Assembly: GCF_004362745.1 (NCBI RefSeq)
Contig: NZ_SNXY01000006.1
Coordinates: 1,550,001-1,614,000 of the forward strand
From: Oharaeibacter diazotrophicus
Lineage (GTDB): Bacteria > Pseudomonadota > Alphaproteobacteria > Rhizobiales > Pleomorphomonadaceae
Direction: 5' to 3'
DNA length: 64,000 nt
This document shows positions 16,876 to 62,621 of the stretch, piece by piece. The notes beneath the pieces are model-generated. The model was not told the DNA's origin. It saw only the letters and a program-made list of their open reading frames with translations, and did not search any database. Made by a program: the position numbers and the translations under genes. Position 1 is the stretch's first letter; each line of letters starts with the position of its first letter.

Positions 16876-17058
16876 GTCCCGACCTGTTCGAGGGCGGGAC
16901 ACGCGGTGACGCCTGCGACGCGACCCTAGTCCTCGCAGAGGTCGTTCCAGGCCCTTGCGCAGGCATCGACGATCGCCGGCACGTCGGCGAAGACGCGGCG
17001 AGAGAGGTATCGTTCCTCCAGGTGGAGCCGGATGCGCTCGGCCGGGTTCAATCCCCGG
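16876..17058 (-). pseudogene. IS630-type transposase remnant, copy 1
   Basis: Reading the minus strand, the frame gives GLNPAERIRLHLEERYLS, then RRVFADVPAIVDACARAWND. This matches the C-terminal end of IS630-family DDE transposases, including the final catalytic Glu in NPAE. A TAG follows LCED, and no upstream transposase remains, so it is a dead fragment. Bases 16881-17034 are an ungapped near-copy of 19542-19695 in the same orientation. The remaining stretch up to 17279 holds no gene and probably contains the promoter of the foreign gene that follows. Confidence 0.8.
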
Positions 17059-17279: not shown

Positions 17280-19265
17280 GTGAATAAACTGGACATTATC
17301 GTATCGCCAGATGAAGTCGATGCGATGTTTAGAACTATACTTGGACGGCCAGCTGGGAACGCCGAATTTTGCAAAAAATTGTCGGCTGACAAAGTAACTA
17401 TTAATCAGCTAGTTGGTATGATACTGAAATCGAAAGAATTTCGATCGCGTTTTGAAGCTGACGTATCCGCAAGGCAGAAGGAAGTTGTTTTTAATTTCGA
17501 CTATAGGATACCGACCGACTTATCTGTCAATGACGTCAGCATCGACAGAGTGGCAATCATAGGATCATGTTTGTCCGATTTTTGGCGGAGGGAAATTGGC
17601 GCACTCAAGCGACCGTTCGAGTGCGATATGTATTACGTTGGGCAGCTACCGAAACAGCCGAACCGCCCAATCTCTGAATACGATTTTCAGATTGTTCAAA
17701 TACCGCTACGCGCGCTGATTCCAGACGCCAGCTTTGCAAAACTCGGTCAATTCGACAGCAAAGGTCACAGCGATCTATTTAAACATTCGTCCTCGACCCT
17801 TATTCGATACCTCGACAATTCAATGAGGTGGAACAAAGCACATGGCATACTGTCGTTCGTTATGACATTGCCTGTGCCACAACAAAATCTGGTCGGCCGA
17901 ACGCAGCCTCGCTTCGAGCTAAGTAATCCCGCCTTCTTCATTGAGAAACTCAACGAAGTCATCTGTCAGGAGATTTCCAAGTATCAGAATTGTTACGTGA
18001 TTGATTTCAATGAAATTTTATCCAGTTACGGCAAGAAATTCATTGTCGAAGATGTGATTGCCCAGTTCAATCACGGCTCAATTATAAACAACTATGATAA
18101 GCAATTTGACAAAAATCGAATTGAGCCGGCCACTCCGGCGACAACAATGTACTATACGGCTACAAAAGAAATCATATTGGCTACGTGGCATGAGATTATA
18201 TCATTGTACAGAATGGTTCGAGGGGTTGATGCAGTAAAGGCTGTTGTAATAGATCTCGACGACACTTTGTGGCGCGGTATCGTCGCGGAACTACACCCCG
18301 ATGAGATGCCGACTTCAGAGGGTTGGCCCAAAGGCTTTTGGGAGGCCCTTCTTATTTTGAAGCGGCGCGGCATCATGCTTGCCATAATCAGCAAAAACGA
18401 AGAAAAACGGGTTCTGGAGTGCTGGGATTCTATTCTGAAAGGTCAACTGAAGATTGACGATTTTGCAGTTCACAAGATAAATTGGGCGCCAAAATCAGAC
18501 AACATGAGAGAGATTCTCAATGCTCTCAATATTTTGCCGAACAGTGTTGTTTATATCGACGACAATCCAATTCAAAGAGCTGAAATCAAAGCGGCGTTTC
18601 CTGACATCAGGGTCCTAGGGGGAACACCTGCTCGATGGAGGCACATTCTCCTGCATTCGAGCGAAACACAATTCACAACCATTACACAAGAATCCACCAA
18701 GAAAACTGAAATGATAAAAGCACAAATTCAGCGTGAACAGGACAGAATGGAGATAAGCAGCGATGATTTCCTGGCCTCGCTGAACGTACAAGTTAAAGTC
18801 TCTGAAATCAGAGACACCAAGCACAGCAATTTTTCGCGCTCACTGGAACTTGTAAACAAGACAAATCAATACAACACAACGGGAAGACGATGGTCGTTCG
18901 AGGAAGTATCGAATAGTATCAATGAGGGTATGAGGATTTTTACATTTGATGTAGAGGATAAATATACACAGTACGGAGTCGTTGGGGTTGTATTTGTTCT
19001 AGGTGATACAATTGAACAGTTGGTTATGAGTTGTCGCGTGATGGGAATGGGAATAGAAGACACCATGGTTTCACATACTGCGCGTATAATAGTGTCCGAA
19101 AGCATGAATAATGGAGCCAAAGGCAGAATTGTAGAAACGGACCGTAATTCTCCCTGTCGAGACATATTCCTCAAGAATGGCTTTTCCTTCGAAGCGGGGG
19201 TTTGGACGGCCCCGTCGGATACGACGACATCGGTTCCATCTCATGTGACATTGGTGGTCTCTTGA
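17280..19265 (+). CDS. FkbH-like HAD-IIIC protein with an N-terminal DUF4214-like segment (foreign gene)
   Basis: A 661-residue protein. Residues about 8-58 (VDAMFRTILGRPAGN, KSKEFRSRF) resemble the short DUF4214-type segment of surface-polysaccharide enzymes. Residues about 85-300 form the FkbH N-terminal region (AIIGSCLSDFW). The HAD domain has DLDDTLWRG with Asp325 and Asp327 and a later acidic pair Asp427-Asp428 (YIDDNP). The C-terminal third is the GNAT-like part with LVNKTNQYNTTGRRW. FkbH proteins load glyceryl-type three-carbon units onto carrier proteins, or modify sugars in glycan clusters. GTG 17280 has AGGAG upstream. The gene is strikingly AT-rich and lies between IS630 remnants, with no carrier-protein or glycosyltransferase genes nearby. 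Confidence 0.85.
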   Translation: MNKLDIIVSPDEVDAMFRTILGRPAGNAEFCKKLSADKVTINQLVGMILKSKEFRSRFEADVSARQKEVVFNFDYRIPTDLSVNDVSIDRVAIIGSCLSDFWRREIGALKRPFECDMYYVGQLPKQPNRPISEYDFQIVQIPLRALIPDASFAKLGQFDSKGHSDLFKHSSSTLIRYLDNSMRWNKAHGILSFVMTLPVPQQNLVGRTQPRFELSNPAFFIEKLNEVICQEISKYQNCYVIDFNEILSSYGKKFIVEDVIAQFNHGSIINNYDKQFDKNRIEPATPATTMYYTATKEIILATWHEIISLYRMVRGVDAVKAVVIDLDDTLWRGIVAELHPDEMPTSEGWPKGFWEALLILKRRGIMLAIISKNEEKRVLECWDSILKGQLKIDDFAVHKINWAPKSDNMREILNALNILPNSVVYIDDNPIQRAEIKAAFPDIRVLGGTPARWRHILLHSSETQFTTITQESTKKTEMIKAQIQREQDRMEISSDDFLASLNVQVKVSEIRDTKHSNFSRSLELVNKTNQYNTTGRRWSFEEVSNSINEGMRIFTFDVEDKYTQYGVVGVVFVLGDTIEQLVMSCRVMGMGIEDTMVSHTARIIVSESMNNGAKGRIVETDRNSPCRDIFLKNGFSFEAGVWTAPSDTTTSVPSHVTLVVS

Positions 19266-19541: not shown

Positions 19542-19695
19542 GACCTGTTCGAGGGCGGAACACGCGGTGAGGCTTGCGACGCGACCGTTGTCCTCGAAGG
19601 GGTCGTTCCCCGCCCTTGCGCAGGCAACGACGATCGCGGGGACGTCGGCGAAGACGCGGTGGAAGAGGTCGCGTTCCTTCAGATGGCGCCGGATG
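19542..19695 (-). pseudogene. IS630-type transposase remnant, copy 2
   Basis: The minus strand reads HLKERDLFHRVFADVPAIV, then VACARAGNDPFEDNGRVASL. This is the same IS630 C-terminal segment as copy 1, without the NPAE part. The two copies align base for base over 154 positions with roughly 15% differences, in the same orientation, about 2.66 kb apart. The invariant-looking AWN is changed to AGN. The stretch 19266-19541 between the foreign gene and this remnant has intermediate GC and no recognisable gene. Confidence 0.78.
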
Positions 19696-21303: not shown

Positions 21304-21558
21304 GGTGCTCTCCGGGATCGGGACGCCCTTCTACCGGATCCCCGGCCCTGGGCGCCAATTCCGAATGCTGATGGATCGGGACGGCGCGGCGGATCGGTGC
21401 CACGCCGGTCCATGGACGATCGCGGGCGGCACGACCGGACGCCACATTATCGGGGCCGGACACCTTTTTGGTGTAGCTGAAGCAGAGGCAAGGGCATATG
21501 ATATTATGAATACCTGCTCGTCGCATCCGCGATCCCCGGCCCGGAAGCCCGCGGCGCC

Positions 21559-21658
21559 CCGACCCGGGTCGGCCCGTCGCAGGCTGGGAGTACCCGAGGG
21601 ACGACGGCTGCGGCACCCGCGACCTCGACAGCCCCTTGTTGGGCTGGCGCCTTCGAGG
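21559..21658 (+). promoter_or_regulatory. Structured mRNA leader, copy 1
   Basis: Three hairpins lie ahead of the ribosome site of the first PPC-like gene: 21559-21572 (arms CCGACC and GGTCGG, loop CG), 21585-21596 (TGGG and CCCG, loop AGTA) and 21623-21658 (outer CCTCGA and TCGAGG, inner CAGCCC and GGGCTG). The same three positions form hairpins in the second leader, with different loop sequences and lengths. The surrounding gap 21304-21678 has no gene. Confidence 0.5.
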
Positions 21659-21678
21659 CTGGACCGAGAGGTGACGTC

Positions 21679-23301
21679 GTGACAGCGAGAAACGCATCCT
21701 GGCGGGGATGGGTGAAACTGGCGCTCGGCGCCGCGGTGCTGATCGCGGGTACGTCGGCCGCCCAGGCCCGAACCCAGTTGTTCGCGGCCCGCAACGACGC
21801 CTTCGCCACGCCCCAGGAGTTGACCCCGGGGCCGCTGCTGAAGCCCGGCACGATCGACTACGCCTCGCGGGAACTCGGCGAGCCCCGGGTCTACCAGGAC
21901 GGCAGCATGCGCCGGACGGTGTGGTACCGTTACACGGCCCGCGCGACGGGCCGGGCGGTGGTGATGATCTCCAGCGGTGTCGAGCGCACCGCCGCCTTCC
22001 AGGTGGCGGTCTACACCGGCACGCGACTTGCGAGCCTGAACCGCCTCGGCCGGGCGCGCGCCGAAGGCACCGCGGAGGCGCCGGCGGCCGCGGTGTCGTT
22101 CCCGACCACCGCCGGGCAGGCCTACATGGTCCAGGTCGACGGGGTGCGGACCGAGGCGGAGTTCTACGGCGACTTCCTCGTCGGGGTGCAGCAGGTCGGC
22201 ACGCGCGGCGGTCTGGCCATGTTCCGCACCCGCCCGCTGTTCGTGGAGGAGGTGTGCTGCGACACCGCTCGCGTCTCCTACGTCGCCAACGGCTTTCCCG
22301 TCGCTGTGAAGCTGACGGCCGGCCTCGGCGACCTCACCGGCAAGCTGACGCTCACCTCCACCGACGACGATCTCGGGGTCGGCCAGGTGTCGATCGTCGC
22401 CCTCGCCAACGCGAAACCGAACTTCGCCGCCGGCACGGTGACGACCGGACGGCTCGACGTCGTCGCCGGACGAAGCCCCGCAGGGGACGTGCTCGGCCGG
22501 GCGTCGGCTCCGGTCACCGTGATCACGCCCGAACGCAAGTTGCATCCGATCGTCGGCATCAACTACCGTGACAGCGGCTTCAGCGTCCGCAAGAACGGCC
22601 TCGCCTCGACGCTCGCCGTGATCCGGAACACGTCCGGCGTCGATGCCGTCGGCTGTCGCTTCGAGCCGAAGACCGACAAGATCGCGACCACCTACGACCT
22701 CGAGGCGCGGGAGATCCTGAAAGATGGCGCGTTCGGCCCGAACAATCGGGTGTTCGACCTGAAGACCGGGGAAACGCGACACTTCCGGATCTCGCACCGC
22801 CCGACCGCCTGGGATCATTCGGAGTTGTACTTCATATGCGCAAACAAGGCGATGGACTTCGAGCGCTTCCATGCCTCGTCACTCGGCAATCAAGTCATAT
22901 TGTGGAAACAGGCACGCGTAAAAATAAGAATGGACTCCGACACTGAATTTGATGAGTACTTCATGGATCAACAGGAGGAACGCACGATTCACCTCGATAT
23001 CACCAATATTGGGGAGTATTCAGGAATATTCACACTGTCGATCCACGATGACTACACTCCAGGCAAAGCGATTCTCTCTGGAGTCTGTGTCGCCGAAGGC
23101 CGCAACGATTGCGAACCCGTGTCCGGTCCCCGCGAACTGGACTTTGACCTCGCGGTCGGCGAGACGCGGCGGGTGACGGCGACCGTGCGACGCGGGTTCG
23201 GAGAGGGTGGCCGCATCGTCTTCTCGGCATACACGAGTTACGCGCCACCAACGAAACTGGTGTCGGCCGGGAATGTCGCCGTCCTTTTGGTCCCGAAGTA
23301 G
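21679..23301 (+). CDS. Secreted PPC-like domain protein, tandem paralogue 1
   Basis: A 540-residue exported protein. The signal peptide (WVKLALGAAVLIAGTSAAQA) is followed at about residues 36-175 by a domain that looks like a bacterial pre-peptidase (PPC) beta-sandwich: NDAFATPQELTPGPLL, SRELGEPRVY, VWYRYTARATGRAVV, AVYTGTRLASLNRL, VSFPTTAGQAYMVQVDG. The remaining 360 residues, with the paired Cys of FVEEVCCDTARVSY and other Cys in GVDAVGCRF, FICANK and GVCVAEGRNDCE, are unassigned. GTG 21679 has GAGGTGA upstream. The downstream copy at 23650 is clearly paralogous. A short AT-rich patch occurs near 22830-23050. Confidence 0.75.
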   Translation: MTARNASWRGWVKLALGAAVLIAGTSAAQARTQLFAARNDAFATPQELTPGPLLKPGTIDYASRELGEPRVYQDGSMRRTVWYRYTARATGRAVVMISSGVERTAAFQVAVYTGTRLASLNRLGRARAEGTAEAPAAAVSFPTTAGQAYMVQVDGVRTEAEFYGDFLVGVQQVGTRGGLAMFRTRPLFVEEVCCDTARVSYVANGFPVAVKLTAGLGDLTGKLTLTSTDDDLGVGQVSIVALANAKPNFAAGTVTTGRLDVVAGRSPAGDVLGRASAPVTVITPERKLHPIVGINYRDSGFSVRKNGLASTLAVIRNTSGVDAVGCRFEPKTDKIATTYDLEAREILKDGAFGPNNRVFDLKTGETRHFRISHRPTAWDHSELYFICANKAMDFERFHASSLGNQVILWKQARVKIRMDSDTEFDEYFMDQQEERTIHLDITNIGEYSGIFTLSIHDDYTPGKAILSGVCVAEGRNDCEPVSGPRELDFDLAVGETRRVTATVRRGFGEGGRIVFSAYTSYAPPTKLVSAGNVAVLLVPK

Positions 23302-23529
23302 CGCCGGGACCGCCGTCGAAATGTCCCGACCTCCGACCGACTTGGCCATGGCCACCCGCCCACTTCGACCACGGCGACGGATCGGTGCCGGATCCGAGCG
23401 CCACGGCCGCGTGTCACATTTCAACGGCCGGAGACCCGGTCGGTGCAACCGTGGCAGCGGTGAAAACATGCGGTTCTTGAATTCTTTCTCGTCGCAGCCG
23501 CGATCCCCTGCTCGGATGCCCGCACCGCC

Positions 23530-23629
23530 CCGACCTTCGGTCGGCCCGTCGCGGGCGGGAAGCACCCGAGGGACGCCGGCTTGCGGGACCCCGCGACCTC
23601 GAACGCCCCGTCCGGCCGGGTCTTCGAGG
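23530..23629 (+). promoter_or_regulatory. Structured mRNA leader, copy 2
   Basis: This stretch matches the first leader in position and layout: 23530-23544 (CCGACC and GGTCGG, loop TTC), 23556-23568 (CGGG and CCCG, loop AAGCA) and 23597-23629 (CCTCGAA and TTCGAGG around a different inner hairpin, CCCG and CGGG). It precedes GAAAGGTGACATC-GTG. Stems are kept while loops change, which suggests a folded RNA. The intergenic stretch 23302-23649 has no other feature. Confidence 0.5.
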
Positions 23630-23649
23630 CTGGACCGAAAGGTGACATC

Positions 23650-25275
23650 GTGACCGCGAAAAGAACTTCCTGGCGTGGGTGGCTGAAACTGGCGCTTGGC
23701 GCCGCCGTGGTGATCGCGGCAACGGCCGCCGCCCAGGCCCGGTCCCAGTTGCTCGCGGCCCCCAACGACGCCTTCGCCACCCCGCAGGCGTTGACCTCGG
23801 GGCCGATGTTGAAGCCGGGCACCATCATCTACGCCTCGCGGGAACTCGGCGAACCCCGGGTCTACCCCGACGGCGGCATGCGCCGGACGGTTTGGTACCG
23901 CTACGCCGCCTCCTCGACCGGGCGTGCGGTACTGATGATCACCGGCGGCTTCACGCGGCCCGCTCCGTTCCAGGTGGCGATCTACACCGGCTCCAGGCTG
24001 GCGACCCTGAGCCGCGTCGCCCGGGTGCGCGCCAAGGCATCGGCGGAGGACCCCGCCGCCGCGGTGTCCTTCCCGACGACCGCGGGGCGGATCTACCTCG
24101 TCCAGGTCGACGGCGTGGTCGACGAGCGGACGTTCTACGGCGACTTCCTCATCGGCCTGCAGCAGGTCGGCGAACGCGGCGGTCTGGCGATGTTCCGCAC
24201 CCGCCCGCTCTTCGTGGAGGAGGATGCGTGCTGCGACAGCGATCGCATCTCCTACGTCGCCAACGGGTTTCCGGTCGCGGTGAAGCTGGCGGCCGACCTC
24301 GGCAGCCTGACCGGCAAGCTGGCGCTCACTTCCACGGAAGACGTGCTGGCGGCCGGGCAGGTGTCGAAAGTCACGCTCGCCGATGCCGATCCGAACTTTG
24401 CCGCCGGCACCGTCACGACCGGACGATTGACGGTCGTCGCCGGACGGGGGCCCGCCGGGGACGTGCTCGGCAGGGCGTCCGCTCCGGTCACCGTGATCAC
24501 CCCCGAGTACGAGCGGCATCCGGTCGTCGACGTCTACCATCTCGACACCAACTTCCGCGTCCGCGTGAACGCTCGCGCGTCGACCCGGACCAAGATCCGG
24601 AACACCTCCGACGTCGATGCCGTCGGATGCCGCTTCGAGCCGGACAAGCAGAGCGATTGGAGCGCCTACGACCTCCAGGCGCACGAGATCTTGCCGGGCG
24701 GCAAGACCGGAGCGGGCAATCCCGTATTCGACCTGAAAGCGGGAGAAACAAAGAACTTCGCGGTATCCTACCGTCCGCTGTACTGGGACATAGCTCATAT
24801 ATTCCTATATTGTGCAAATAAAGACATGAAGGTGAAGAACACGGTCAACGATACGTTTCGCGCCTGGGCAGATCTCGGAATTCCGGCCTTTGTCGAGCTG
24901 AGGCCGGATGCCGACACCGAGTTCGGCGAACTCAGGATGGGAAAATTCGAGACGCGGCTCGTCCATGTCGACGTGACGAACAGAGGCGAGTATTCCGGCG
25001 ACTTCAAGATGGAGATCCAGGACGATCGCTATCACGACAGAGCGGTCGTGACCGGGCTCTGCGTCGCGGAAGGCGTCGGCGACTGCAAGCTCACGTCCGC
25101 CAGGACCTACCTGATCTTCGACCTCGCCGTCGGCGAGACTCGCCGGGTGACGGCCGCGGTTCGCCACGGCGGCGGAGCGGGCGGCGAGATCGTCGTGAGA
25201 ATGGCCGTGAAGGACGATTCTCCGACCGGCCTCTCCACCATGGGGATGACCGGCATCCAGGTCGTTCCGAAATAG
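23650..25275 (+). CDS. Secreted PPC-like domain protein, tandem paralogue 2
   Basis: A 541-residue exported protein, colinear with the gene at 21679. The signal peptide is WLKLALGAAVVIAATAAAQA, then a PPC-like domain (NDAFATPQALTSGPML, VWYRYAASSTGRAVL, VSFPTTAGRIYLVQVDG), the shared CCDSDRISYVANGFPVAVKL segment and a diverged C-terminal third (RADADTEF-like DADTEFGELRM, GLCVAEGVGDCKLTS). Identity is high over the first 300 residues and falls sharply after. The homologous GTG at 23650 is chosen; an upstream ATG at 23581 would lie inside the hairpin leader. A role outside the cell is inferred from the signal peptide only. Confidence 0.75.
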   Translation: MTAKRTSWRGWLKLALGAAVVIAATAAAQARSQLLAAPNDAFATPQALTSGPMLKPGTIIYASRELGEPRVYPDGGMRRTVWYRYAASSTGRAVLMITGGFTRPAPFQVAIYTGSRLATLSRVARVRAKASAEDPAAAVSFPTTAGRIYLVQVDGVVDERTFYGDFLIGLQQVGERGGLAMFRTRPLFVEEDACCDSDRISYVANGFPVAVKLAADLGSLTGKLALTSTEDVLAAGQVSKVTLADADPNFAAGTVTTGRLTVVAGRGPAGDVLGRASAPVTVITPEYERHPVVDVYHLDTNFRVRVNARASTRTKIRNTSDVDAVGCRFEPDKQSDWSAYDLQAHEILPGGKTGAGNPVFDLKAGETKNFAVSYRPLYWDIAHIFLYCANKDMKVKNTVNDTFRAWADLGIPAFVELRPDADTEFGELRMGKFETRLVHVDVTNRGEYSGDFKMEIQDDRYHDRAVVTGLCVAEGVGDCKLTSARTYLIFDLAVGETRRVTAAVRHGGGAGGEIVVRMAVKDDSPTGLSTMGMTGIQVVPK

Positions 25276-25290
25276 ATCCGGCGCCGAACA

Positions 25291-25318
25291 CGTGACGGTC
25301 CGATCCGGGACCGTCACG
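25291..25318 (+). terminator. Hairpin after the second PPC-like gene
   Basis: A perfect 11-bp stem (arms CGTGACGGTCC and GGACCGTCACG, six-base loop GATCCG) begins 15 bases after the stop codon. There is no T tract, but position and stability suit a transcript end for the tandem pair. Confidence 0.6.
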
Positions 25319-25394
25319 AGACCGGAGCGCCGGCGGCGTGGCTCGCCATCGGGATCGCCTGCTCGCGCCGCGCCCTCGCGCCCGCCTCGCTCCT

Positions 25395-44226: not shown

Positions 44227-46200
44227 ATGACGGACGAGGCGGCCTTGGGCGTGGTACCCGAGCGCGTCGAGCAGGCGAAGGCGGCGGTGCGCTCCGTCCG
44301 CGAGATCGCGCCGCTCGCGCTCGTGATCGGTGGCGCCGTCTTCCTGCTCCTCGCGGATGCCATCGCCCTCCCCGTGCTCGGCGGCTGGTACGCGCTGCTC
44401 GCCGCCACCTACGCGGTCCGCTGGGGCGTGATCGACCACGCCCGGCGCTCGCTCGAGCGGGATCCCGAACGAGTGCTGCGCCTCGCCGTCGTCATGGCGA
44501 CGATCTCGGGGCTCGCCTGGGCGGTGGTGCCTTGGCTGGTGGTGTCGCGCGGCGACCTCGACCTGCGCGGCCTCGCCACCATCATGGTGCTGTTCAGTTT
44601 GGCGGCCAGCGTCGTCACGGTGAACACCGCCTATGCCCCCGTGACGATCTTCTTCGCGACGCCCTGCACGTTGTCGCTGGTCGCCGCCCTGTTCACGCTC
44701 GGGGATCCCGACGTCTGGATCCTCGACGTCGCGATCCTCACCTACGGCGCCGTGCTCGTCCGTTCGGCGCTGGTCGGCGAACGGCGCTACGTCGAGCACT
44801 TCCGCCTCGCGCTCGCGCAGGAAGCCGCCTCGCGCTCGCTCTCGGTCGCCGCCGGCGAACTCGAGCGCTCCAACGAGCGGCTGGTCCACCTCGTCGACCA
44901 CGACCCGCTCACCGGGCTCCTCAACCGCAGCGGCTTCGCCAACGACCTCGATGACCGCATCGCCCGGGCCGCGCTGCGCGGCGGCAAGGTCGCCCTGCTC
45001 CTGATCGATCTCGACAACTTCAAGGCGGTCAACGACAGCCAGGGCCATCCGGCCGGCGACACCGCGCTGGCCGAGACCGCCGCCCGCATCCTCGCCCTGG
45101 TGCCGGCCGGCGCCTCGGTCAGCCGCACCGGCGGCGACGAGTTCGCCGTCGCCCTCGGCGACGACGAGGCCGGCACCGTCGCCGACGGCCTCGCCCAGCG
45201 CCTGATCCACCACATGGCCGAGCCCTTCTCGGTCGCCGGTCAGCCGGTGGTGCTCGGCTGCAGCGTCGGCATCGCGGTCTATCCGGATCACGGCGGCGAT
45301 CGCCAGAGCCTCGTCTCCCACGCCGACATGGCGCTCTATTCCGCCAAGGACGCCGGCAAGGGCCGGCCCTGCCACTTCGACATCGACATGCTGTCGCGCC
45401 GCCACGCCCAACGCGTCGTCGAGCACGACCTGCCCACGGCGATGGACCGCCACGAGGTCGAGGTCCACTTCCAGCCGCAGGTCTCGCTGGTCGACGGTCG
45501 GCTGGTCGGCGTCGAGGCGCTGGTGCGCTGGCACCACCCGTTGATGGGCTGGATCGACCCGCCGGCGATCGTCGACGCCGCCCGCCGGGTCTATTCGGCC
45601 GCCCGCCTAACCGCCTACGTGCTCGAGGCCTCCGTCGCCGTCCGCGGTCTGCTCGCCGCCCACGGCTGGCGCGACATCCGCGTCGCCGTCAACGTCTCGC
45701 CACGCGACCTGCCGTTCTTCCCCCTGCCCGAACTGGTCGCCGAGATCGCCGGCGACGCCGTCGGCCGGGTCGACGGCATCGAGATCGAGATCACCGAGGA
45801 CGCGATGATCGACCTCGATCTCTGCGGCCCCAAGCTCGCGGCGCTCAGGCTGATGGGCGTCAAGATCGCCGTCGACGACTTCGGCACCGGCTTCTCCTCG
45901 CTCGCCTACATGAGCCGGCTCGAGGTCGACCGCATCAAGATCGACCGCCAGTTCGTCCACGACCTCGACGGCGACGGCCACAACCGCTCCCTTGTCCAGG
46001 CCGTCGTCGGGCTCGGCCGCTCGCTCGGCTGCGAGGTGCTCGCCGAGGGCGTCGAGACCGCGGCCATGGCCGCCCGCCTCGCAGAACTCGGCTGCGACAG
46101 CGGCCAGGGCTGGTATTTCGGCCGCGCCATGCGCGCCGACGAGCTCGACCGCTGGCTCGCCGACTTCGCCGCCGCCGCCCCCCGCCGCAGCAGGGCGTGA
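44227..46200 (+). CDS. Membrane-bound bifunctional diguanylate cyclase/phosphodiesterase
   Basis: A 657-residue protein. About residues 28-190 hold five or six hydrophobic segments forming a membrane sensory region. The GGDEF domain has an intact GGDEF site (residues 302-306), and the EAL domain has EAL at 430-432, VNVSPRD, EITEDAM, DDFGTGFSSL, IKIDRQF and VLAEGVET, so all metal-binding residues for phosphodiesterase activity look intact. Both making and breaking cyclic di-GMP are possible. A monocistronic position divergent from the P450 is seen. Confidence 0.93.
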   Translation: MTDEAALGVVPERVEQAKAAVRSVREIAPLALVIGGAVFLLLADAIALPVLGGWYALLAATYAVRWGVIDHARRSLERDPERVLRLAVVMATISGLAWAVVPWLVVSRGDLDLRGLATIMVLFSLAASVVTVNTAYAPVTIFFATPCTLSLVAALFTLGDPDVWILDVAILTYGAVLVRSALVGERRYVEHFRLALAQEAASRSLSVAAGELERSNERLVHLVDHDPLTGLLNRSGFANDLDDRIARAALRGGKVALLLIDLDNFKAVNDSQGHPAGDTALAETAARILALVPAGASVSRTGGDEFAVALGDDEAGTVADGLAQRLIHHMAEPFSVAGQPVVLGCSVGIAVYPDHGGDRQSLVSHADMALYSAKDAGKGRPCHFDIDMLSRRHAQRVVEHDLPTAMDRHEVEVHFQPQVSLVDGRLVGVEALVRWHHPLMGWIDPPAIVDAARRVYSAARLTAYVLEASVAVRGLLAAHGWRDIRVAVNVSPRDLPFFPLPELVAEIAGDAVGRVDGIEIEITEDAMIDLDLCGPKLAALRLMGVKIAVDDFGTGFSSLAYMSRLEVDRIKIDRQFVHDLDGDGHNRSLVQAVVGLGRSLGCEVLAEGVETAAMAARLAELGCDSGQGWYFGRAMRADELDRWLADFAAAAPRRSRA

Positions 46201-46242
46201 AACCGATCGCGCGAAACGCCGACGCGCCGCCACGGCGCGCGG

Positions 46243-46701
46243 TCACGGCCCTTGCGCCGGCTCCGGTTCGGGCACCGGTCGGCCGCGACGGTCGCCGAGC
46301 AGGCACGCGAGCCGGGCGCGCAGGACCTCGGGCCGGCGCGTCTCGCATTCCCACACCAGCACGACCCGGAAGCCGGCCGCCCTGAGCGCGCGGATCGCCT
46401 TGGCGTCGCGGCGGCGGTTGGCGGCGAGCTTCTCCGTCCAGAAGGCCCTGTTGGCCTTCGGGATCGTGGCGGCGCGACAGCCGGTGTGGTGGTGCCAGAA
46501 GCAGCCGTTGACGAACAGCGCCCAGCGCCGGCGCCGGTTGGCGAAATCGGGCCGCCCCGGCAGCCCGGCGACGTCGAGCCGATAGGCGAGGCCGAGCGCG
46601 CGCAGCATCCCGGCGACCAGCGTCTCCGGCGCGGTGCCGCGCCGCCTGACCCGCCGCATCAGGTCGCTGCGTTCGGGGCTCGACGGCGGCGGCCGGTTCA
46701 T
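46243..46701 (-). CDS. vsr: Very short patch repair endonuclease
   Basis: A 152-residue nuclease that repairs T:G mismatches arising from deaminated 5-methylcytosine. Conserved segments are MRRVRRRGTAPETLVAGMLRAL, LPGRPDFANRRRRWALFVNGCFWHHH (split: LPGRPDF, FVNGCFWHHHTGC) and FWTEKLAANRRRD, with C-terminal VLVWECE. The catalytic Asp is in GRPDF. Its ATG overlaps the dcm stop (ATGA), the classic dcm-vsr coupling. Confidence 0.9.
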   Translation of the reverse strand: MNRPPPSSPERSDLMRRVRRRGTAPETLVAGMLRALGLAYRLDVAGLPGRPDFANRRRRWALFVNGCFWHHHTGCRAATIPKANRAFWTEKLAANRRRDAKAIRALRAAGFRVVLVWECETRRPEVLRARLACLLGDRRGRPVPEPEPAQGP

Positions 46702-61160: not shown

Positions 61161-62516
61161 ATGCGCCTCGCCTCCCCCTGGACGCCCCGCCTCGCCGGCT
61201 CCGGCCTGCCGCACGAGCGGCTCGCCGCGGCGATCGCCGAGGATCTCCAGTCCGGCGCGATCGCGCCCGGCGACCGCCTGCCGCCGCAGCGCGACGTCGC
61301 CTGGCGGCTCGGCCTCGCGGTCGGCACCGTCGGCAAGGCCTACGCCGCCCTCGAGCGCCGCGGCCTCGTCGAGAGCGTCCACGGCCGCGGCAGTTTCGCC
61401 GCCGGCCTCAAGACCGACGACGCCGGCCCGGCCGACCTCGCGGTCAACCGGCCGCCGCAGATGCTCGACGACCGCCTGCTCGCCGCCACCCTCGCCACCG
61501 TCGCCCGCCGGCTCGACGCCGACGCCTTCGGCGGCTACGCGCCCTCCGCCGGCCGGCCGGTACACCGGGCGATGATGGCGCGCTGGCTCGCCCGCCAGGG
61601 CCTGCCGGCCGCGCCCGAGACCGTGCTCCTGACCAACGGCGCCCAGCACGCCCTCTCCGTCGCGCTCGACCTCGCCTGCCCGCCGGGCACGCTGCTCCTC
61701 GTCGAGCGTTTCACCTATCCGGCCGTACCGCTGTTCGCCCGCCACCGCGGCGTCGAGGTCCGCGGCCTCGCCGTCGACGGCGAGGGCATGCGCCCCGACG
61801 CCCTCGCCGAGGCGCTCGCCGACGCCGCCCGCGCCGGCCGCCGCGCCGCGCTCTACCTGATGCCGACGGTGCAGAACCCGACCGCCGCCGCCATGGGCCC
61901 GGCGCGCCGGCGCGCCATCGCCGACCTCGTCGCCCGCCACGACGCGACCATCGTCGAGGACGAGGTCTACGCCGGCCTCGCCGAGGCGCCGCCGCCGCCG
62001 ATCGCCGCCCTGGCGCCGGAGCGCACGCTCCACGTCACCGGCCTCTCCAAGGTGCTGAGCCCCGGGCTCCGGATCGGCGCGCTGGTGGTGCCGCGCGCCC
62101 TCGCCGCCGCCGCCGCCGAGCGGGTTCAGGCCGCCTGCACGTCGGTGTCGGTGCTGTCCTGCCTGATCATGGAGACCTGGTTCGCCGACGGCACCGCCGA
62201 CGTCGTCGCCCGCGCCATCCGCGAGGAGGCCCGCGCCCGCCTCGCGCTCGCCCGCGCCAAGCTGCCCGACGCCAAATTCGCCGCCGGCGGCTACCATCTC
62301 TGGATGCCGATGCCCACCGCCGCCGCGGCCGAGTTCGTCGCCCGCGCCGCCGCGGCCGGGGTGCTTCTGATGTCGGCGCGCGCACCGCTCGCCGATCCCG
62401 CCGATCCCGTGGGCGGCGTCCGCGTCAGCGTCGGCGGCCCGGCCCGGCCGACGCTTGAGCGGGCGCTCGACGTGCTCGCCGGCCTGTCCGAGCCGCCCGC
62501 GATGGCGGCGATCTGA
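61161..62516 (+). CDS. MocR-type regulator (GntR winged helix fused to aminotransferase)
   Basis: A 451-residue fusion. Residues 1 to about 80 hold the GntR winged helix (HERLAAAIAEDLQSGAIAPGDRLPPQRDVAWRLGLAVGTVGKAY, seen as GDRLPPQRDVAWRLGLAVGT), then a linker and a class I aminotransferase-like domain with Lys297 in TGLSKVLSPGLRIG as the PLP-binding residue. MocR proteins sense pyridoxal phosphate or amino-acid derivatives. The divergent phzF-like gene shares its operator region and is the likely target. Confidence 0.92.
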   Translation: MRLASPWTPRLAGSGLPHERLAAAIAEDLQSGAIAPGDRLPPQRDVAWRLGLAVGTVGKAYAALERRGLVESVHGRGSFAAGLKTDDAGPADLAVNRPPQMLDDRLLAATLATVARRLDADAFGGYAPSAGRPVHRAMMARWLARQGLPAAPETVLLTNGAQHALSVALDLACPPGTLLLVERFTYPAVPLFARHRGVEVRGLAVDGEGMRPDALAEALADAARAGRRAALYLMPTVQNPTAAAMGPARRRAIADLVARHDATIVEDEVYAGLAEAPPPPIAALAPERTLHVTGLSKVLSPGLRIGALVVPRALAAAAAERVQAACTSVSVLSCLIMETWFADGTADVVARAIREEARARLALARAKLPDAKFAAGGYHLWMPMPTAAAAEFVARAAAAGVLLMSARAPLADPADPVGGVRVSVGGPARPTLERALDVLAGLSEPPAMAAI

Positions 62517-62621
62517 GTCCCGAGCCCTGCGAGGAGCACCCGACCGGGCGCCGGCCGGATGGCAGGAACCTCCCGCCGTCCCGGCTCGGCCGGGGCGTCG
62601 GGAGCCGGCGGAGACTCTTCC

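Follow-up and report, generated by a model that had tools for sequence, protein, structure and literature searches.

Hairpins in the duplicated leaders of two tandem PPC-like genes of Oharaeibacter diazotrophicus are likely remnants of a dispersed gene-end repeat

Two genes that lie in tandem in the genome of Oharaeibacter diazotrophicus (Alphaproteobacteria; Rhizobiales; Pleomorphomonadaceae) encode paralogous PPC-like proteins, and each is preceded by a leader of 172 nucleotides (nt) in which hairpins can be drawn. A sequence-only reading of the locus had proposed that these leaders could be a new cis-regulatory RNA. Do the hairpins make up such an element, or do they have another origin? 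We addressed this question in a stretch of 64,000 nt (NCBI RefSeq assembly GCF_004362745.1, contig NZ_SNXY01000006.1, positions 1,550,001 to 1,614,000 of the forward strand), referred to below as the window, and by searches of the whole genome and of related genomes. The hairpin part of the leaders was found to be a diverged copy of a repeat that is dispersed in the genome at the 3' ends of genes, a result at odds with the proposal of a new cis-regulatory RNA. We consider it likely that the leaders carry a captured and eroding copy of this repeat, which was duplicated along with the gene, and that they are not a new RNA switch under the control of CsrA. The features discussed are listed in Table 1.

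The leaders were duplicated along with the genes, as the sequence-only reading had suggested. In a pairwise comparison 145 of 168 ungapped positions were identical, and the leaders precede paralogues whose products share 63% protein identity. When the leaders were aligned with MAFFT, 144 of 172 columns were identical and 28 differed, with six additional gap columns, so that overall identity amounts to 84-86% depending on the alignment. This identity steps down at position -172, and in the 66 nt upstream of the leader block only 40 of 64 positions were alike. A comparison of the sequences farther upstream scored -12, compared with a maximum of -24 in 200 shuffles, which is weak homology by score, while the percent identity there (71 of 102 positions, or 0.696) was no higher than in the shuffles (mean 0.709). 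Because the upstream comparison outscores all 200 shuffles, the copied unit probably extends farther upstream, with faster divergence in that part.

A search of the O. diazotrophicus genome with leader 2 gave seven places among the best 40 of 91 candidates; two of these were the leaders themselves, and the other five scored 50-54.5 bits. One of these five, used as the query, yielded 46 matches (best 40 of 282 candidates scored). Thirty copies were fetched and 29 were aligned to produce a model, R1, with 122 positions and 42 pairs; copy L041 was omitted from this alignment (A2) because its hairpin A is shorter. All five of the non-leader matches of leader 2 are R1 rows. The R1 match to leader 2 runs through model positions 1-122 in order and includes the stretches between the hairpins, and the next R1 rows in the window, both at 15.5 bits, were the antisense hairpin of leader 2 itself and positions 46204-46299. 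Using blastn against the 29 aligned repeat copies, leader 2 reached 58.1 bits over 109 columns. None of 1000 dinucleotide shuffles reached the score of either leader, the shuffle maximum being 37.4 bits, and leader 2 exceeded that maximum with at least 22 of the 29 copies. When the window was divided into 672 tiles, the score of leader 2 was reached only by its own tile and by two tiles over a repeat copy at 62.5 kb, and the score of leader 1 was reached or exceeded only by those two tiles and two over the leaders. Judged from these comparisons, the repeat homology is clear for leader 2; for leader 1 it is weak when that leader is taken alone and is seen through leader 2.

The repeat unit is about 122 nt long and palindromic, with hairpins that we designate C, B, b and A in a row. 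Within the genome, 9 of the 42 pairs of the model show compensatory changes, and the 29 aligned copies fold with a mean z score of -8.2 (range -12.9 to -3.8). Among the best 150 of 13,282 first-look candidates in the genome, R1 gave 140 rows with E values of 1e-3 or lower and 105 rows of at least 60 bits; some of the weak rows are antisense echoes of others. In order to describe where the copies lie, 60 loci (L020-L079) were collapsed to 42 distinct copies. Eighteen of these lie between convergent genes, 18 lie between genes in tandem and none between divergent genes, while five had one side without a called gene and one fell inside a called open reading frame. The nearest gene end was within 10 nt of the element in 30 of the 42 copies, most often at a distance of 1 or 4 nt. 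The stop codon of the preceding gene is often contained in the repeat or directly adjoins it, with TGATACC-like ends, and several copies, inspected by eye, showed ends resembling TGATACC and GGTATGA. This overlap with the stop codon may be a clue to how sites are chosen.

In addition to the leaders, the window contains a repeat copy that lacks most of hairpin C and begins one base past the stop codon ending at 62516. A possible second diverged copy lies at 46204-46299 on the minus strand (R1 15.5 bits; blastn 46.4 bits). We also noted a strong hairpin at 25281-25328, 6 nt past the stop codon of PPC-like gene 2, which has a weak likeness to the repeat (R1 13.4 bits, E value 0.09).

The distribution of the repeat family in the order is patchy. 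R1 rows with E values of 1e-3 or lower were present in 14 of 20 genomes of the bacterial family, and in eight of the 20, that of O. diazotrophicus included, the best E value was 1e-15 or lower. Across 81 genomes of the order, searched with stricter filters and with at most the best 44 candidates scored per genome, R1 was found in four, again including O. diazotrophicus; one of these belongs to another family and contains 32 rows. Six repeat-bearing loci, four from this genome and two from relatives, gave no match to Rfam at threshold. Two matches to microRNA families appeared at a lax setting, far below their gathering scores, and were taken as chance. No description of the repeat turned up in the literature searches, in which text cannot be queried by repeat sequence.

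The leaders differ from this family in both placement and folding. The copies that we examined lie at gene 3' ends, whereas both leaders lie 5' of genes: leader 1 is between a divergent MFS gene and PPC-like gene 1, and the repeat part of leader 2 begins some 210 nt downstream of where PPC-like gene 1 stops. Neither leader is therefore at a gene 3' end, and both are on the wrong side of the gene for the R1 family. What leader 2 shares with the family is the end-to-end sequence, the order of the hairpins and the non-palindromic linkers between them. In contrast to the stable and well-paired family copies, the leaders fold like shuffled sequences, with z scores from -0.2 to -1.3. The values against dinucleotide shuffles were -0.98 and -0.66 for stretches of 186 and 189 nt; the 172-nt leaders gave -1.29 and -1.06, and their 112-nt hairpin part gave -0.43 and -0.23. 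Much of the pairing of the repeat has been lost in the leaders, hairpin C having mismatches, hairpin B being broken and hairpin A altered.

The sequence-only reading had counted three conserved hairpins in each leader, and two of them were confirmed. Hairpin 1 has the tip CCGACC/GGTCGG in both copies, the loop being CG in the first and TTC in the second, and hairpin 3 has an outer stem, CCTCGA/TCGAGG, that is identical in both leaders, while its inner stem differs. Hairpin 2 could not be upheld as conserved, being a 3-bp GGG/CCC stem (loops AGTA and AAGCA) whose 5' arm is one base out of register between the copies; 3-bp stems with loops of 4-5 nt occur 9.8 times per 172 nt across the window. 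The three hairpins together have 33 pairs, 24 of which are invariant, while seven are unpaired in one copy and two are unpaired in both. The claim of a conserved structure is not supported, since none of the 33 pairs shows a compensatory change between the two sequences available and the folds are no more stable than those of shuffles. GGA triplets are present in both leaders, where the loops of hairpins 1 and 2 have the sequences given above. Taken alone, the three hairpins are not beyond chance; hairpins 1 and 3 gain meaning only because they match hairpins of the genome-wide repeat family.

Table 1. Positions in the window of the two leaders, their hairpins, the repeat copies and the PPC-like genes
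Feature	Positions	Strand	Details
Leader 1 (conserved block), preceding PPC-like gene 1	21507..21678	+	Identical to leader 2 at 144-145 positions
Leader 2 (conserved block), preceding PPC-like gene 2	23478..23649	+	Alignment to leader 1
Diverged triple-hairpin repeat copy inside leader 2	23512..23632	+	R1 positions 1-122, 24.5 bits, E 1.7e-4 in window
Equivalent stretch in leader 1, more decayed	21541..21661	+	Placed by alignment with leader 2 (A5)
Hairpin 1, leader 1 (repeat hairpin C), loop CG	21547..21584	+	Alignment, pair comparison, R1 match
Hairpin 1, leader 2 (repeat hairpin C), loop TTC	23518..23556	+	R1 match, alignment
Hairpin 2, leader 1, 3-bp stem with AGTA loop, out of register with leader 2	21586..21595	+	Alignment
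Hairpin 2, leader 2, 3-bp stem with AAGCA loop, 5' arm offset by one base	23557..23567	+	Alignment
Hairpin 3, leader 1 (position of repeat hairpin A)	21623..21658	+	Alignment, pair comparison
Hairpin 3, leader 2 (repeat hairpin A)	23597..23629	+	R1 match, pair comparison
Repeat copy without most of hairpin C	62518..62608	+	45.3 bits, E 1.5e-9
PPC-like gene 1	21679..23301	+	540 amino acids, GTG start
PPC-like gene 2	23650..25275	+	541 amino acids, GTG start

Because the hairpins are the worn remains of a gene-end repeat, the leader is most likely a captured repeat, and the following history is the simplest. A dispersed palindromic repeat of about 122 nt, present in around a hundred strong copies of which the majority lie immediately behind stop codons, would have given rise to the hairpin parts when one copy landed upstream of an ancestral PPC-like gene. 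The unit consisting of upstream sequence, leader and gene would then have been duplicated in tandem, and the pairing of the captured repeat would have eroded after the duplication. We infer this order of steps, including capture before duplication, as we do the present role of the leader, which would most likely be that of an ordinary 5' untranslated region. Selection would keep parts of it, the ribosome-binding stretch above all, and any influence of leftover hairpins on the processing of the mRNA would be weak at best.

Several observations weigh against a history of simple capture and erosion. The leader has diverged more slowly than the 4-fold silent sites of the genes that it precedes. 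The silent-site baseline was taken from the first 300 codons, over which the paralogues resemble each other and 45 of 158 4-fold sites differ (77 of 222 differ over the whole gene); the leaders differ at 23 of 168 positions (p 0.001), or at 28 of 172 by the MAFFT-based count (p 0.008), and the hairpin part alone differs at 19 of 109 (p 0.04). Since it is conserved above silent sites, the leader is not simply decaying, and some function is likely. The match of leader 1 by itself is also weak: R1 scores only hairpin C in it (11.6 bits sense, 13.3 bits antisense), and its 48.2-bit blastn match is to a single copy, antisense, over a self-complementary hairpin. Its second-best copy, at 34.6 bits, is within the range of the shuffles, and a 46.4-bit match elsewhere in the window, at 46171-46359, comes near to its score. 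The RNAalifold consensus of the leaders is a long-range fold that differs from the three hairpins. Its 49 pairs include two that change on both sides and four that change on one side, so that a structure other than the three hairpins is conceivable, although a covariation signal from two sequences is weak. Finally, the 42 copies used for placement were drawn from the best-scoring ones and are not a random sample, and their neighbouring genes were called with our own codon-usage script.

Other explanations were considered. The conservation of the leaders might reflect DNA or translation signals, such as a promoter or the ribosome-binding region, with the hairpins as passengers of a GC-rich leader. 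The ribosome-binding end, defined as the last 23 columns of the alignment, differs at only two of them, the lowest proportion among the six blocks counted, and perfect 6-bp stems with loops of 2-6 nt arise 0.89 times per 172 nt in the window in any case. The leader as a whole is probably constrained, its ribosome-binding end the most, and the hairpins are not singled out. However, a consensus scan for sigma-70-like promoters and intrinsic terminators showed neither in the leaders, and leader 2 resembles the repeat family more than chance would allow. We therefore regard passenger hairpins as a doubtful explanation, albeit one that deserves some weight.

A second alternative accepts the capture of the repeat but holds that it now works as a cis-regulatory leader, for example by offering RNase III or RNase E a place to process the mRNA, or through pairing of the 5' part of the leader near the ribosome-binding site. 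The conservation above 4-fold sites and the identity step at -172 are in its favor, and the consensus fold, with its two pairs that change on both sides, joins columns 14-18 to columns 168-172 near the start codon. Correia elements in or near leaders have also been reported to be promoters, IHF sites and RNase III sites (PMC10969869). Against it, the leaders show no excess folding stability, the pairs between columns 14-18 and 168-172 are invariant and hence uninformative, only two sequences could be compared, and the leader was found in none of the relatives searched. We judge such a working leader to be rather unlikely. The fuller version, in which a gene-end palindrome was captured on the 5' side, made into a regulatory leader and selected in two tandem genes by way of RNA processing or pairing near the ribosome-binding site, seems to us unlikely as well, and slightly more so.

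The searches for the leader in relatives were as follows. Among 20 genomes of the family, with up to 38 candidates scored per genome, it was found in that of O. diazotrophicus alone, and the same was true among 297 genomes of the order (best two candidates per genome), short matches aside. Those short matches, of 28-54 nt at 39-44 bits in nine other genomes of the order, were taken as chance because they covered different parts of the query. No likeness to the leader was seen in the 400 nt upstream of other paralogues, three of them in this genome (C6:804320, 806240 and 563286), three in genome G018 and one in genome G010, and the leader is thus not general to the gene family. In G018 the tandem paralogues are at loci L009, L013 and L016, and the leaders of L013 and L016 are alike by eye and unlike those in the window. 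Rfam gave no match at the gathering threshold anywhere in the window, and none up to an E value of 5 in 21400-23700.

The likeness between leader and repeat could also be convergent, GTCGG/CCGAC hairpins being common in the genome. The match is indeed largely self-complementary, and leader 1 matches both strands and matches only one of the 29 copies well. Against convergence are the ordered match of leader 2 over the entire model, linkers between hairpins included, and the failure of any of the 1000 shuffles, or of any window tile other than its own and the two over the 62.5-kb copy, to reach its score; we find convergence quite improbable. A new CsrA-type regulatory leader with three conserved hairpins, suggested by the partial sharing of hairpins 1 and 3 and by the GGA triplets, is very improbable, given a second hairpin out of register, no compensatory changes and no CsrA gene found. 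The CsrA domain PF02599, a possible partner of those triplets in the sequence-only reading, was not found in the O. diazotrophicus genome (99.96% complete), and the same search did detect it in E. coli, B. subtilis and T. maritima, three genomes of a control set of 14. The involvement of CsrA itself is already contradicted, unless a non-homologous protein plays its part.

The dispersed repeat bears a resemblance to several kinds of described bacterial repeats. REP sequences are palindromes that lie, for the most part, between genes that converge or run in the same direction, past the ends of coding regions; a stop codon is supplied by some of the GTAG REPs (PMC3733652). The R1 repeat appears similar to the GTAG- and CGTC-tagged REPs described there in being palindromic, intergenic and placed at gene ends. 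It differs in size and make-up, since REPs are given in that source as 20-40 bp palindromes with a tag, the CGTC families having 8-9 bp stems, whereas the R1 unit is about 122 nt with four hairpins. The RIME and AB/C palindromes of rhizobia are described (PMC2573895) as repeats between genes whose sequence and structure are conserved and whose function is unknown; R1 may be likened to them as an intergenic rhizobial repeat, by description and not by sequence. With Correia elements, which are miniature inverted-repeat transposable elements, the likeness is that of a dispersed hairpin repeat beside a gene start (PMC10969869), a comparison by placement.

The two tandem genes probably encode secreted proteins, for which the PPC label is plausible from sequence. 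PF04151 had no match at E values of 0.1 or lower in either protein of the window, and was matched by two of the seven aligned members of the protein family (best E value 7e-4). Near full-length relatives were present at two more places in this genome (C6:804320 and 806240) and elsewhere in G018, with three in tandem, and G010. The G018 paralogue in L009 has an in-frame TAG and was omitted from the protein alignment (A3). A distant relative with 31% identity over residues 34-155 was found in a metagenome-assembled genome of the Akkermansiaceae in one scan of genome contigs, and a search of a plasmid collection found no relatives on plasmids. The predicted structure had a mean predicted local distance difference test score (pLDDT) of 73, and among the 50 matches listed it matched mainly many-domain beta-sandwich proteins, with template modeling scores (TM-scores) of 0.11-0.21 by query length; these predicted matches are not informative on function.

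Two other features of the window were noted. Positions 22819-22968 within PPC-like gene 1 have a G+C content of 46% and overlap a 60-codon block in which the paralogues differ the most. A 154-bp direct repeat, at 16881-17034 and 19542-19695 and 87% identical, flanks a gene at 17280-19265. This gene has 44% G+C, compared with 71% for the window, its product has a HAD-hydrolase domain, and it looks like a recent arrival.

On the reading that we favor, a simpler history thus takes the place of the supposed new riboregulator: a gene-end repeat was carried into a leader, and leader and gene were then duplicated together. The repeat family is marked by hairpins that covary, by its close association with stop codons and by its uneven occurrence in the order, and the loci tested gave no Rfam match. 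Work on it may help to show how palindromic repeats choose gene ends, and whether copies gain a function after arriving on the 5' side of a gene. That the leaders now regulate is a possible outcome of this kind and, if that were the true reading, an element of gene ends would have been turned into a control region at gene starts.

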